Below are positions 32,108-39,135 of a DNA stretch of 60,317 nt, in pieces (the first letter of the stretch is position 1; the number at the start of each line of letters is the position of its first letter). The stretch is taken from assembly GCA_016788565.1 (NCBI GenBank), contig JAEUSP010000083.1, positions 1-60,317 on the forward strand, in the 5' to 3' direction. The stretch comes from Chlorobiota bacterium. GTDB lineage: Bacteria; Bacteroidota; Ignavibacteria; OLB7. The notes beneath the pieces are model-generated. The model had not been told where the DNA came from. It saw only the letters and a program-made list of their open reading frames with translations, and did no database searches. The translations under genes and the position numbers were made by a program.

Positions 32108-35100
32108 TCATCTTGCTGTTGTTGCCGCAGCATTCAGTTCCTTGATCCGCTGGCGATAGGCGTGCTTCGGACTTTTCTCTATCAGCTGTTCATACTGGCG
32201 TAGAGCTTCGATGCGAACTCCATCATTTGTCCCAGTAATCTTCCAAAGCCAATAGTGTAGCTCGGCACGTTGCTCATCATCGCCAGCTTCATGCAGCATG
32301 GTGGAAAGGCTTTGCACAGCTGTATCCCGATTGCCCTGGGCTGCATTGATGCGTGCGAGCAATATCTGGATTCTGAAAATGGAGTCAGGCTTCGATAGTT
32401 GATGTGAGATTGACAGCCCCTCGTCGGCATACGTGCGCCCCCCCAGAAGCACCAATGCACGCCACGTTTCGGGGGTCGCACCCGGAAGGTAGGATTCCAG
32501 AAATTCCGGAATCTTGGCATCAGCGGAAGTGGTTCTGCTGGCTGAGTCGAGAAGCTCAAGGAACACCTGCACAATCCCTTCAATCGCCATAACCAAGCCG
32601 AGACGGTGTTGGATGCTTCGGCTTTCCGAGCTGGCAGAGCTGAAGCAACTCAATGCTTTGTCAAGCTCTCCTTCGGCTAAGTGGACGCTGCCGCGATTGC
32701 AGAGGGCATCGGCAAAACTCAAGCGATCGCCCAGTTCCTGCGCGATTTGCTCATGCTCGAAAAAACAAGCGGCGGCATCGGCATATTCGCCACGGTCTAA
32801 ATGGAGTAGCCCCCGATTACCGACGCATGCAGCAATCCCAGCACGGAATCCAAACTGGCGCACAATCCGCTCCTGTGTCCGGTAGCATTCGACTGCATCA
32901 TCGTGCTTGCCGCAGTAGGTGTAAATGATGCCACGTTCGCCAGCAACATCGGCAATGGTCAGGTGATCTCCCTGCTCGCGTGCAATCGCTTCCCTCTCTA
33001 GACAACAGTCAAGCGCTTTGTCGTATTCGCCACGATCCAGATGGATATAGCCTCGGTTGCCAAGTGACAAGGCAAGGCTGCGGCGGTCGTCAAGCAAACG
33101 CGCAATCGCCTCAGTCTCGGCAAAACACGCAAGGGCTGCGTCATATTCGCCACGCTTGGCAAGGATGGTTCCGTGCTGGCCAACCGCCATTACAATGCTT
33201 GGGTTATCGCCCGTCTTGCGTGCGGCGGCCTCGGCTTCTGCCGCCATGCGCTCGGCATCCTCCATCCGTCCAAGCCTACGCGCTATCCCAGCAAGGTATG
33301 CCAGTGCTTGCACTTCGTGTATGCGATCGCCCAGCACGCGCAGCAATTCAATGCGCTCAAGCTGAAGTTGCTCTGCTTCCTGCCATGCCCCTATCTGAAC
33401 GAACAACTGGGCAACGGCATCCAGTGCCTGGGCTTTCTGTTGCGGCTGCGCCCACTGCTGCCACTGCTGAAGCCCAGCGGAATACGCAGCAGTTACTGTT
33501 GCCCGCTCTTGTTCAGACCACAGCCTCAGCACTTCCTGCTTCTCGGCCACCCACAATTCTTGGAAACGCTCAATGTCTGACAACACCAAATGCAGCCGCG
33601 CCCGCGCACCAAGCAGATCTAATGCGTGCAGCAACTCCAACGTGGCACGCAGCGACACAGGCTCGCCCTGGAAATATCTGGCCAAGCGTTCAAACACTCG
33701 GTGCTTCTTCGGTGTGTCGTCCAGATATCGCTTCTGGACTGCGCTCCGTAGATACTGATGAAAGAAATCCAGCAGGCCTTGATTTCGCTTTAGGTGGTAG
33801 TCAAGCCCGACAAGAAAGGTTGATAATTCCAACCGGGTAACATTCCTAATGGCGGTCCCCTGCTGAAACTCCATGCTCATCAGCTCAAGCATCTCCGTTT
33901 CGGTCAGCCCCGCGCGCGATGCCCAAATTGCCTCCATTGTCAGTTGAACTACATCCACACCGTGGTCGTGCTCCATTCGCTCAAGCACTCGCTGAAATAG
34001 GTCGTCCAGGTCAACAGCATCCATGTAATGCTCAATCCGTGTATCCAATTCCTCATGAACGCCAAACACCCGAAGCTCCTCAAGCACTGTGCGCAGGAAC
34101 AGGGCATTGCTGCATTTCTGGTCATCGGCAATACGCGATAGCTTTTCGGAGCCAAGTTTTTTGTGGTATTCGGCAAGGTAGCGTTCAATCACCGCGGCGC
34201 GCTGGGTGTGGCTTAGCGGCTGAACCTGAACTTCGGCATAACCGCACTGGCACAATGTCGCCAGCAATGGCCCTTCGGTGGTAGTGAGAACTACCTGAAT
34301 ATCAGGCGGAATGAAGTTGGGTAGCCAGTGCAGCGATTGCCCAGGTTCCGGCAACTGATTCACAGCATCAATAATCAGCAGCAACTTCCGGTTGCGGACG
34401 TATGCCAGCCATGCCGGAAACTGTTGTTCGATGTTCCTGGCAGTATCCGGCACATCTTGGGCAACGGAGTACAGCTGCTTGATCTCCCTGATGATATGGA
34501 GCATCAGCCCGATGTGATCGCGCGCCGACGCGCTTGCCCCCACGTAGTGCGTAACCATTGCCTGCCCCGGATGGCTTGCTTGGTGAAGCAACGACCAGTA
34601 CGCGATAAGCGCGCTTTTCCCCATTCCTGATTGAGCGGTGATGACAATCTTCTGCTGACCCGATTCCACAACGTCACTCAACAGCTTCACGGTGGATTCA
34701 TTGCGGATGTACGCCTGCCGGCGCGATTGGGCAAATGCGTTGTGTGCCGTTCGCTCCTGTTCAAGCAGGCTGGGCGCAGCCTCCAGCGGGAATCGTTTCT
34801 CGATCAGGTCCCGAAGGTCTTTGTGAATCTCTGCGCCAAGCTCCTGCGGCGTTGTGAATCCTTCGCGCACGGGATACCCGCTGGCACGGATATCCTCTTT
34901 CAACCGCTGTAGCTTTGCTTGCAGCACGGGGTCGGTCTCGGCAAATATTGCGGGCGTTGCCGATTGGTGGCGGAAGTAGAAACTGGCATCACTCTCCGGC
35001 GAAACCACCCGCCGTGTGGCTCCATGCTGAATTTCCATCTCGGTGATGCTTGCTCCATCGGTCACCGCATCGGTTAGATCCGGGAAGTCACTGATAAGGT

Positions 35101-35389
35101 GTGCGATAGCCGAAGCAGGGGGCATCCAGCCGTAGCGCTCGCCAAGGATGCCGATAAAGAACGGTCGGCAACGATCAATCTCCTCCAGACAGATGCGGAT
35201 AATGCCGTCACGTTCGGCCTCTTCTTCCGTGATGCCCCAGCGAAGGTCTATCTCCGTAAAGGTCACGCCACGTTGGCGGCACATCGCACGAATTTCCGGG
35301 AAGACCTTCTTCACCAGATACTCACGTTCTTCCTGTAGGTCACGAAACGTTGAGGAGATAAAAACCCGAAGCTCGTTACTCTGCGGCAT
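32108..35389 (-). CDS. DUF4062-STAND ATPase-TPR protein (NLR-like)
   Basis: A 1093-residue signal-transduction ATPase. Residues 1-100 form a DUF4062-type domain (LRVFISSTFRDLQEEREYL, RCRPFFIGILGERYGW), a TIR-like fold. A NACHT/STAND module follows with Walker A AQSGMGKSAL at about 252-261 and Walker B KLLLIIDAVNQL at about 335-346, then a winged-helix-like region to about 640. From about 660 to 1085 there are tandem TPR helices (GNRGYIHLDRGEYDKALDCC, GNRGLLHLDRGEYADAAACF). The order matches eukaryotic NPHP3- and NWD1-like proteins and bacterial NLR-type sensors: effector, oligomerising ATPase, sensor. It has a strong Shine-Dalgarno (GGAGGGATCAAC). No partner gene is adjacent. Antiphage or stress sensing is inference. 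Confidence 0.9.
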   Translation of the reverse strand: MPQSNELRVFISSTFRDLQEEREYLVKKVFPEIRAMCRQRGVTFTEIDLRWGITEEEAERDGIIRICLEEIDRCRPFFIGILGERYGWMPPASAIAHLISDFPDLTDAVTDGASITEMEIQHGATRRVVSPESDASFYFRHQSATPAIFAETDPVLQAKLQRLKEDIRASGYPVREGFTTPQELGAEIHKDLRDLIEKRFPLEAAPSLLEQERTAHNAFAQSRRQAYIRNESTVKLLSDVVESGQQKIVITAQSGMGKSALIAYWSLLHQASHPGQAMVTHYVGASASARDHIGLMLHIIREIKQLYSVAQDVPDTARNIEQQFPAWLAYVRNRKLLLIIDAVNQLPEPGQSLHWLPNFIPPDIQVVLTTTEGPLLATLCQCGYAEVQVQPLSHTQRAAVIERYLAEYHKKLGSEKLSRIADDQKCSNALFLRTVLEELRVFGVHEELDTRIEHYMDAVDLDDLFQRVLERMEHDHGVDVVQLTMEAIWASRAGLTETEMLELMSMEFQQGTAIRNVTRLELSTFLVGLDYHLKRNQGLLDFFHQYLRSAVQKRYLDDTPKKHRVFERLARYFQGEPVSLRATLELLHALDLLGARARLHLVLSDIERFQELWVAEKQEVLRLWSEQERATVTAAYSAGLQQWQQWAQPQQKAQALDAVAQLFVQIGAWQEAEQLQLERIELLRVLGDRIHEVQALAYLAGIARRLGRMEDAERMAAEAEAAARKTGDNPSIVMAVGQHGTILAKRGEYDAALACFAETEAIARLLDDRRSLALSLGNRGYIHLDRGEYDKALDCCLEREAIAREQGDHLTIADVAGERGIIYTYCGKHDDAVECYRTQERIVRQFGFRAGIAACVGNRGLLHLDRGEYADAAACFFEHEQIAQELGDRLSFADALCNRGSVHLAEGELDKALSCFSSASSESRSIQHRLGLVMAIEGIVQVFLELLDSASRTTSADAKIPEFLESYLPGATPETWRALVLLGGRTYADEGLSISHQLSKPDSIFRIQILLARINAAQGNRDTAVQSLSTMLHEAGDDEQRAELHYWLWKITGTNDGVRIEALRQYEQLIEKSPKHAYRQRIKELNAAATTAR

Positions 35390-37450: not shown

Positions 37451-37580
37451 CTGGGGACGATAGCGGTTGGCGTTGGCCATGATACTCTATCTGCCGATTG
37501 GTTGTGCAAGATACTTCCGGGAAGTTGCTGGCATCGGTTTGCAGGAACAATACGAAAGAACGGCGAACCTATCATATTTC

Positions 37581-38951
37581 TTACTGCAATTGCAGTAGTT
37601 GGTGCGGGAAATCTGGGGGTAGCATGAAGTACACCAGCTTACCGATTTTTTGCTTTGTCAATAGCCCCTGGCCCACCAATTTCAGCAGATCGGTACGTGC
37701 GGTTAGGTAGGTGACACCATGGGCGCTCATGTGAGTGTGGATGGTGTAGTTTGCGTTTGGGTGAGTCATTGCGTGGGTCAGCAACGCAATCTGGCGTGGG
37801 TTCAGCAACCGTGCCACTTGGTTCATTTGCTGCAATGCTGCGGTTGCTTGCTGTGTGGCTTCGGATTGCTGCTTTAACCTTCTGTGCAAATCATGAATTG
37901 CCCGCTCAATCACGCCAAGCTGCGCCAGCACAAAGTAGGTGGTATCGTTGTTGTCGGTCTCGGTGTATAAAAAGGATTGGACGTAGCGCGCGGGCGCTTT
38001 GGTCAGAATGGCGGAGATGGTCAAATACTCACAGAGCCAATATCCACGATGCGCCATGGACCAGTAGAACAACGCCCGCGCTGTCCGCCCGTTGCCATCC
38101 ACAAACGGGTGGTCGTAGGCCAACCAAAAATGGAGTAGGATGGAGCGAACAACGGGATGGAAGTAGATTGCGTTTGGCGAAAGATCATCCCGCTGGTTTG
38201 CGAAGTTGCACAACTGCTTTACCCGTTCGTGTAGCTCGGAAGCATCAGGGGGAATATGGAGTTCTTCGTTATCACGCCTATCCACCACAGTTATCTGCTC
38301 ATCTGGCCGCCGAAAACGCCCCGCAGCGGAATGGTCATCAAGGGTGTCGTGGGTTAGTATCCGTTGCAGTTCCAGAATCATCGCGGGTGTCAACGCCTCA
38401 TGCTTTATCCGGCCGATGAACTGCATGGCGTTGTAGTTGTTCAGGATCATCTGCTCCGAGCGGTCACGGGGTTTGCGTTCGGTGGTAAGCATCTTCTTGG
38501 CCACGGCGTGTGTTGTGGCCGCCCCCTCAAGCCGGCTTGATTGAATCGCTTCCTCAATCAGCGACCGCTTGATGTGGCGTTCCCGCTCAGGTTGGCTCAG
38601 CAATGCTTTTGGGCTGTCAATCGCGCCGCTTGCTTGGCTATCAATAAACCGCAAGTAGTATAATCCCGGGTCGGTCATGGTGAAGGAAAACGGCTGGCCG
38701 TTGCCATCGCGTATCGGCAGCGTGCGGCTTAGCGACTGCCGCGCCATGCGGATACCAAGCCACCATTCTTCCACGGTAAAACCTTCTGGCGGCTCCACGT
38801 GCCGCAAGGTGTCCCAGTGGCGATATTGATGATCTGGCGCAGGGCCAAACTGCGCCATGGCAATCTGAAGAATCCGTTCTATCCCTTTGCTGCCCGTGCC
38901 TAACTTGCCGATAATATCTGCCGGGTTTGGCGGGGTTGCTGGTAGTTTCAT
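37581..38951 (-). CDS. Fic-domain AMP transferase with winged helix
   Basis: A 456-residue protein with an N-terminal helical domain, a Fic core and a C-terminal winged-helix segment (about 380-450; LNPRQIALLTHAMTH, TYLTARTDLLKLVGQGLL). The Fic active site HPFVDGNGR is near 281-289, complete with catalytic His. An inhibitory SxxxEG motif (SSRLEG) near 138-143 places it in the class with an N-terminal inhibitory helix. Such proteins usually AMPylate a partner protein; the target is unknown. The ATG at 38951 is preferred; a TTG seven codons earlier (38972) is possible. An iterated palindromic operator lies 35-80 bases upstream, so self-regulation by the winged helix is likely. Confidence 0.9.
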   Translation of the reverse strand: MKLPATPPNPADIIGKLGTGSKGIERILQIAMAQFGPAPDHQYRHWDTLRHVEPPEGFTVEEWWLGIRMARQSLSRTLPIRDGNGQPFSFTMTDPGLYYLRFIDSQASGAIDSPKALLSQPERERHIKRSLIEEAIQSSRLEGAATTHAVAKKMLTTERKPRDRSEQMILNNYNAMQFIGRIKHEALTPAMILELQRILTHDTLDDHSAAGRFRRPDEQITVVDRRDNEELHIPPDASELHERVKQLCNFANQRDDLSPNAIYFHPVVRSILLHFWLAYDHPFVDGNGRTARALFYWSMAHRGYWLCEYLTISAILTKAPARYVQSFLYTETDNNDTTYFVLAQLGVIERAIHDLHRRLKQQSEATQQATAALQQMNQVARLLNPRQIALLTHAMTHPNANYTIHTHMSAHGVTYLTARTDLLKLVGQGLLTKQKIGKLVYFMLPPDFPHQLLQLQ

Positions 38952-38985
38952 AACAGGCGGTTGGTTGTTCAACGGCCACCAACAT

Positions 38986-39030
38986 AACGTTTATAATTTA
39001 TAATCATGTTATAAACGTTTTATAAACGTC
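38986..39030 (-). promoter_or_regulatory. Iterated operator upstream of the Fic gene
   Basis: AACGTTTATAA at 38986-38996 is mirrored perfectly by TTATAAACGTT at 39009-39019. It is followed by a second copy TTATAAACGTC at 39020-39030 and a weaker TATCAACGTC at 39031-39040. The AT-rich DNA also suits a promoter. The pattern suggests cooperative binding of a winged-helix dimer. Confidence 0.65.
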
Positions 39031-39135
39031 TATCAACGTCCACCGGCTTGGTGTAGATTGCTTCCCCGCCTTGCCTGGCAAGGGCTGTGGCAACCGAACA
39101 AGCAACGCAACAATGGCAAACGCACCAGCAATGAA

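Follow-up and report, generated by a model that had tools for sequence, protein, structure and literature searches.

Does an AMP transferase control its own production through repeats that lie in front of its gene? The question is raised by a contig of a Chlorobiota bacterium (JAEUSP010000083.1; the whole stretch of 60,317 nucleotides that was analysed is referred to as the window), in which a gene coding for a Fic protein is preceded by an inverted repeat and further repeat copies. A preliminary description of the window proposed that this Fic protein, which appeared to end in a winged helix, may bind the repeats and repress itself. Here we describe candidate operator sites that, in many groups of bacteria, vary together with the DNA-binding tail, which suggests that the Fic enzyme would control its own production.

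The fic gene and its product

The fic gene (encoding P0001, 456 aa) is an open reading frame transcribed leftwards (37581–38951, minus strand) with an ATG start at 38951 and an in-frame TTG at 38972. The start at 38951 matches that of the orthologues, M1 being the same in all 25 rows of the alignment. P0001 matches the Pfam Fic model (E 1.8e-15), as do all 25 rows, and contains the Fic motif HPFVDGNGRTAR (residues 281–292; 38076–38111, minus strand), which agrees with the pattern HxFx(D/E)GN(G/K)R and in which H281, F283, D285, G286, N287, G288, R289 and R292 are invariant in 25/25 rows. A class II inhibitory motif, SSRLEG (residues 138–143; 38523–38540, minus strand), is located N-terminal to the Fic motif and agrees with (S/T)xxxE(G/N), and its S138, E142 and G143 are invariant in the same 25 rows. 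By its motifs P0001 is thus a class II Fic/FIDO AMP transferase, with AMPylation as its predicted activity.

The C-terminal part of P0001 matches no Pfam model at E 0.001. An AlphaFold model (25-row alignment, mean pLDDT 86.2, block pLDDT 77–91 over residues 391–450) contains helices at 385–396, 404–411 and 415–427 and strands at 432–436 and 439–443, and residues 367–456 align with 2d1h_A (ST1889, a solved archaeal protein; Z 12.9, rmsd 1.9, 88 aligned residues), which we take to be a winged helix. Model and alignment agree on a winged helix at residues ~381–445 (37617–37811, minus strand), as the preliminary description had supposed. Residues Y415 and L416, whose codons are at 37704–37709 (minus strand), open the recognition helix (415–427).

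The next gene on the same strand starts at 37480, 100 bp downstream, and codes for a Glu/Leu dehydrogenase; the criterion for a toxin-antitoxin system of the Sofic-AS1 kind is a small antitoxin gene directly downstream. A comparison of reading frames of at least 110 codons at 81 loci identified no neighbour gene common to the family, the largest cluster of neighbour genes spanning 11 loci and several clusters coming from a single group of related loci only. In about ten loci (L047, L048, L052, L056, L067, L077, L082, L104, L106 and others), mostly from Planctomycetota by record title, neighbour genes are common around fic, so the place of fic is stable in that mostly Planctomycetota clade, unlike elsewhere. 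The window also contains, at 32108–35389 (minus strand), a gene for a 1093-aa protein in which DUF4062 is accompanied by an AAA-like region, TPR repeats and an NWD1-like winged helix; the protein resembles STAND-type sensors.

A four-site array upstream of fic

Read in the direction of the gene, positions 39030–38986 consist of GACGTTTATAA-AACGTTTATAA-CATGATTATAA-A-TTATAAACGTT, an array of four 11-bp half-sites in which three are in tandem and one is inverted, and in which the last pair forms a 23-bp dyad (11+1+11). Half-site 1 (39020–39030, minus strand) matches at 10 of 11 letters, half-site 2 (39009–39019, minus strand) is exact, and half-site 3 (38998–39008, minus strand) is degenerate (8/11) and is the dyad partner of the inverted half-site 4 (38986–38996, minus strand). 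Half-site 4 is identical in L035, the closest orthologue (protein 82% identical), and the equivalent place of half-site 3 in L035 is occupied by a perfect AACGTTTATAA.

The perfect 11-base inverted repeat reported in the preliminary description is present, with AACGTTTATAA at 38986–38996 on the plus strand and its exact reverse complement at 39009–39019. Of the two additional half-site copies listed there, the one at 39020–39030 stands (10/11), whereas the one at 39030–39040 has only 8 of 11 letters by an eye count and is one base out of register; half-site 3 at 38998–39008 had been overlooked. Because of this half-site, and its perfect form in L035, the functional dyad is probably the 23-bp pair (38986–39008) rather than the 34-bp pair (38986–39019).

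The 11-bp arm is the longest exact inverted repeat in the 200-bp region, compared with arms of 5–10 bp in 200 dinucleotide shuffles, and a default repeat search of the region was blank because its minimum arm is 12 bp. The four-site array scores 55 of 66, a value reached by none of 1000 dinucleotide shuffles (maximum 36), and the next-best place in the window scores 39. Single half-sites with up to two mismatches are found 11 times across the window against 7.2 expected; they are unenriched by themselves, so the significance of the array rests on its arrangement. Between the window and L035 the array is identical at 40/45 positions, compared with 17/35 columns in the stretch from the array to the ATG and 34/60 upstream. 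Among the orthologues the exact half-site letters of the window recur upstream of L035 only, and these letters therefore rest on two related genomes of one genus.

Array geometry is shared by orthologues

A scan of genome contigs yielded 362 relatives, of which 80 were kept, and the relatives span 15 named phyla by record title, although titles of metagenome records can be wrong. Members of the family (E up to 1e-60) were found in 26/288, 12/296, 9/345, 36/321 and 5/301 genomes of five groups. The upstream regions of the orthologues are rich in TACTAAT/ATTAGTA half-sites instead of the window's letters. The preliminary description had made the presence of the repeat upstream of orthologues a test of its proposal, and the result is divided: the letters differ in all but one orthologue, whereas the geometry of the array is kept.

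Geometry was examined in 147 non-redundant orthologue rows, using exact inverted 7-mers with AA at positions 5–6. Inverted 7-mers most often span 23 bp (62 rows) or 34 bp (32 rows), and no further span is found in more than 5 rows; direct pairs are most often separated by 11 bp (34 rows), with the runner-up distance at 11 rows. A letter-free score for a dyad plus a third half-site is at least 11 in 81 of the 147 upstream regions (1.1% of 735 shuffles) and at least 10 in 108 (7.2% of shuffles). The other 39 rows score below 10, some of them through divergence or misplaced starts, and they include YATAR rows in which an array is visible by eye but misplaced by the scan. In the 96 rows that reach a score of 10 and have a clear half-site, four or more half-sites are present in 74 (2 of 96 shuffled regions), with mostly 3–6 half-sites per 160 bp as opposed to mostly 0–2 after shuffling; arrays often contain 4–7. 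Two further loci, L227 (YETAR, TACTAAT) and L228 (NQTAR, TCCTAAT), are in line with the family by eye. At L055 there is a second perfect 23-bp dyad ~80 bp 3′ of the fic stop codon (G1621:C1:1029380-1029402, a position reckoned by hand).

Copies on viruses and plasmids are few, comprising two viral-contig loci and 19 plasmid and three phage records, all with less than 60% identity. By eye, a plasmid relative from Vibrio (L229) has no clear array, and one from Klebsiella (L230) has an inverted repeat, AACTCAATTTT/AAAATTGAGTT, immediately before the gene. More distant Fic relatives (L003–L030) have a usable reading frame at 27 of 28 loci, and at seven of these 27 the longest upstream inverted repeat exceeds those of all 30 shuffles, with other letters and another geometry. 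The seven (L006, L013, L014, L015, L019, L024 and L028) represent other subfamilies of SoFic-like Fic proteins, from organisms related to that of the window, and L019 has several AAAGTAAACTTA-like copies upstream.

Half-site letters covary with the recognition helix

Each column of the protein alignment was compared with each half-site base by mutual information, with the register checked by bases 5–6 only. Among 442–443 columns, the top rank for base 2 goes to column 415 and that for bases 3 and 4 to column 416, and the ranking holds at score thresholds of 12, 11 and 10 (54, 72 and 86 rows, respectively). Because ancestry is common to all columns, the ranking has a control for relatedness built in. 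At threshold 11, CT accompanies Q416 in 56/56 rows, TC or TT accompanies A416 in 10/10, and base A accompanies Y415 in 57/57. H415 pairs with A, C, G or T at base 2, so there is no simple rule for residues other than tyrosine at this position. Since the letters AACGTTTATAA are carried only by the window and L035, their pairing with L416 is without an independent replicate.

These rules were fixed before new loci were examined. Of 66 test rows, with start codons chosen by rule, 24 were usable at score 10, and here the 416 rule held in 19/19, made up of 13 Q and 6 A rows, and the rule for Y415 in 10/10; a constant guess of CT would be correct in 13/24. At score 9 there were 30 usable rows and the 416 rule held in 22/23, the miss being the divergent L142. 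A further candidate rule, that H, R or P at 415 specifies G, was rejected, as it held in only one of four test rows (L133 and L135 have C and L150 has A). Locus L189 (RATAR) has TGTCAA by eye and would unite both changes, but the scan did not locate the array at that point. Six loci of the Gammaproteobacterial class sample (L177, L183, L186–L188 and L192) have YDVAR or YDIAR, with the usual T417 replaced, and by eye have TACTTG half-sites, in which bases 5–6 are TG instead of AA.

A quick tree built from the Fic part only, with the winged helix left out, places six A/Q changes at residue 416 and six changes at base 3, and 3/3 well-supported independent pairs are concordant. Residue 415 changes 11 times and base 2 ten times, with about three of five pairs concordant and none opposite; three and five well-supported pairs are not enough for a sign test to reach significance. 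That the half-site letters covary with residues 415 and 416 gives strong inferential support to the proposal that the Fic protein may bind here.

We propose that P0001 uses its C-terminal winged helix to occupy the 11-bp half-sites in front of fic, most probably with dimers on the 23-bp dyads and also at the adjoining tandem half-sites, which, being 11 bp off, would point to almost the same side of the DNA helix, and that the fic promoter would thereby be blocked. Y415 and L416 would read AACGTTTATAA in the lineage of the window, and Y415 and Q416 would read TACTAAT in most relatives. With half-site letters and recognition helix changing in concert, each lineage would have a private lock and key.

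Promoter overlap and private location

A promoter-like pair, TTGATA (39036–39031) and TATAAC (39013–39008) separated by 17 nt (39008–39036, minus strand), overlies half-sites 1–3. It is weak (10/12 letters in our own scoring), and a stricter scan of the window reported no promoter at this place. Promoter-like pairs with at least 10/12 letters are present in 38 of the 147 orthologue rows compared with 15 shuffled, and with at least 11 in 8 compared with 0. Where both such a pair and an operator are present (31 rows), the two overlap in 27, with 15.6 expected. Given the overlap of half-sites with promoter-like boxes in orthologues and the precedent of the Yersinia Fic protein CccR (PMC9755527), we grade the proposal that the protein may repress itself as likely.

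The preliminary description had also envisaged that copies of the half-site elsewhere in the genome could reveal other targets, and this was not borne out: with up to one mismatch the single half-site is found 38 times in the genome, compared with 51 for a reversed control. The 23-bp dyad, with up to three mismatches, occurs once in the window's genome. In carriers of TACTAAT the dyad (up to one mismatch) is present at the fic gene in 25 of 25 genomes, and of 44 dyad places in these genomes (positions reckoned by hand from contig ranges) 40 are just upstream of the fic start and four are elsewhere, with 13 places for the reversed control. No regulon was found in either the window's genome or the 25 TACTAAT-carrier genomes. 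The single dyad in the window's genome and the 40/44 dyads at the fic start indicate that the operator is private.

Taken as a whole, it is very probable, judging from these sequence comparisons, that P0001 binds the fic promoter via a private operator, represses it and is thus an autorepressor. Computation shows the array with its conserved geometry, the covariation, the fold of the winged helix and the integrity of both the catalytic and the inhibitory motif; binding, its dimeric form, and repression rather than activation are what we infer.

Other explanations of the array

The protein could bind the array for a mainly enzymatic purpose, with the operator as an allosteric partner that keeps it idle or deAMPylating and with repression as a secondary effect. 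Random DNA dimerises CbFic2 of Coxiella burnetii and stimulates its deAMPylation (as reported in PMC10628234), and the high half-site number of many arrays and the absent regulon would be consistent with such a role, but one or two copies of the operator per cell would hold few protein molecules, and we think this improbable as the main purpose.

It is very unlikely that some other general host regulator binds the array and that the winged helix of the Fic protein serves elsewhere, for example in the regulation of toxicity as for Sofic. The C-terminal domain of E. coli Sofic does affect toxicity (PMC12249575), and DNA binding by SoFic was undemonstrated as of PMC10628234. However, two residues of the recognition helix of the Fic protein itself rank first of the 442–443 columns, with parallel changes on the tree, and a shared regulator would imply a regulon, yet the dyads are concentrated at fic. 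Pairing of the inverted repeats in RNA is conceivable, and the array is AT-rich, but that the repeats act in RNA as leader hairpins, or are a chance pattern of AT-rich sequence, is hardly credible: the spacing (11-bp tandem, 23- and 34-bp inverted) follows the DNA helix repeat, shuffles fall short of the array, the letters covary with a protein helix, and a search for a terminator-like stem found none.

Relationship to known Fic proteins

Autorepression by a Fic protein with a helix-turn-helix is already known. CccR of Yersinia pseudotuberculosis represses its own gene via a footprinted inverted repeat and requires its C-terminal HTH to do so (PMC9755527). P0001 resembles CccR (PDB 7XUX), which likewise joins class II Fic features to a C-terminal HTH and has an inverted repeat in the promoter region of its gene (PMC9755527), and the two are related in sequence (E 4.4e-5 for 7xux_A) and fold (Z 26.7, rmsd 9.4, 330 aligned residues). 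They differ in the operator, as the CccR footprint contains two 10-bp repeats 26 bp apart (PMC9755527), whereas here there are 11-bp half-sites, 23-bp dyads and tandem copies with other letters; the CccR geometry (46 bp in all) is not among the 12 commonest spans in the 147 orthologue rows. CccR is also a T6SS effector (PMC9755527). P0001 and its operator are thus best read as a variant of the autorepressor theme with a readable recognition code.

CbFic2 (PDB 8CIL) likewise combines a class II Fic domain with a C-terminal wHTH (fold Z 28.0, rmsd 5.8, 335 aligned residues). DNA binding alters its dimerisation and (de)AMPylation, as described with random DNA only, and its authors call for a specific binding sequence (PMC10628234). 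CbFic2 has no known cognate site, whereas for the P0001 clade one is predicted.

In the anti-phage toxin Sofic, toxicity is governed by the C-terminal domain (PMC12249575); in a term search of PMC12249575, HTH, DNA-binding and transcription go unmentioned. The PADLOC SoFic model PDLC03963 matches residues 119–438 of P0001 (E 1.1e-41, 141.5 bits), but P0001 scores 32.3 bits with the NCBIfam SoFic model NF046030, an equivalog with a cut-off of 550 bits, and we therefore regard P0001 as SoFic-like and not as SoFic. The Fic + wHTH layout is the same (P0001 versus 3eqx, Z 27.2, rmsd 5.4, 331 aligned residues), and P0001 has ~80 extra N-terminal residues compared with SoFic.

Residues of transcription factors have likewise been correlated with operator bases by comparative genomics in the LacI (PMC2978694) and GntR (PMC4494728) families. 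Those are dedicated transcription factors, whereas here the regulator is an AMP transferase. In the open-access literature we found no description of this clade, of the iterated 11-bp array or of the recognition code.

Implications

The coupling of AMPylation to DNA binding, envisaged in the preliminary description, is here a proposal only, with a precedent on random DNA in CbFic2 (PMC10628234). A stronger version, which we consider rather unlikely, is that the operator acts as a 'DNA antitoxin', in which cooperative binding at multiple sites would hold the Fic dimer idle or deAMPylating. If so, loss or breakage of the DNA (such as degradation of the host chromosome by a phage) or titration would free an active AMP transferase and open its promoter, and the recognition code would have been selected to keep the toxin on its own gene and nowhere else. 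Matched and mismatched operators make switching between AMPylation and deAMPylation by specific DNA testable. The residue-base rules offer a natural set of repressors with differing specificities, and for a clade of AMP transferases reported under 15 named phyla the cognate DNA would be predictable from two residues.
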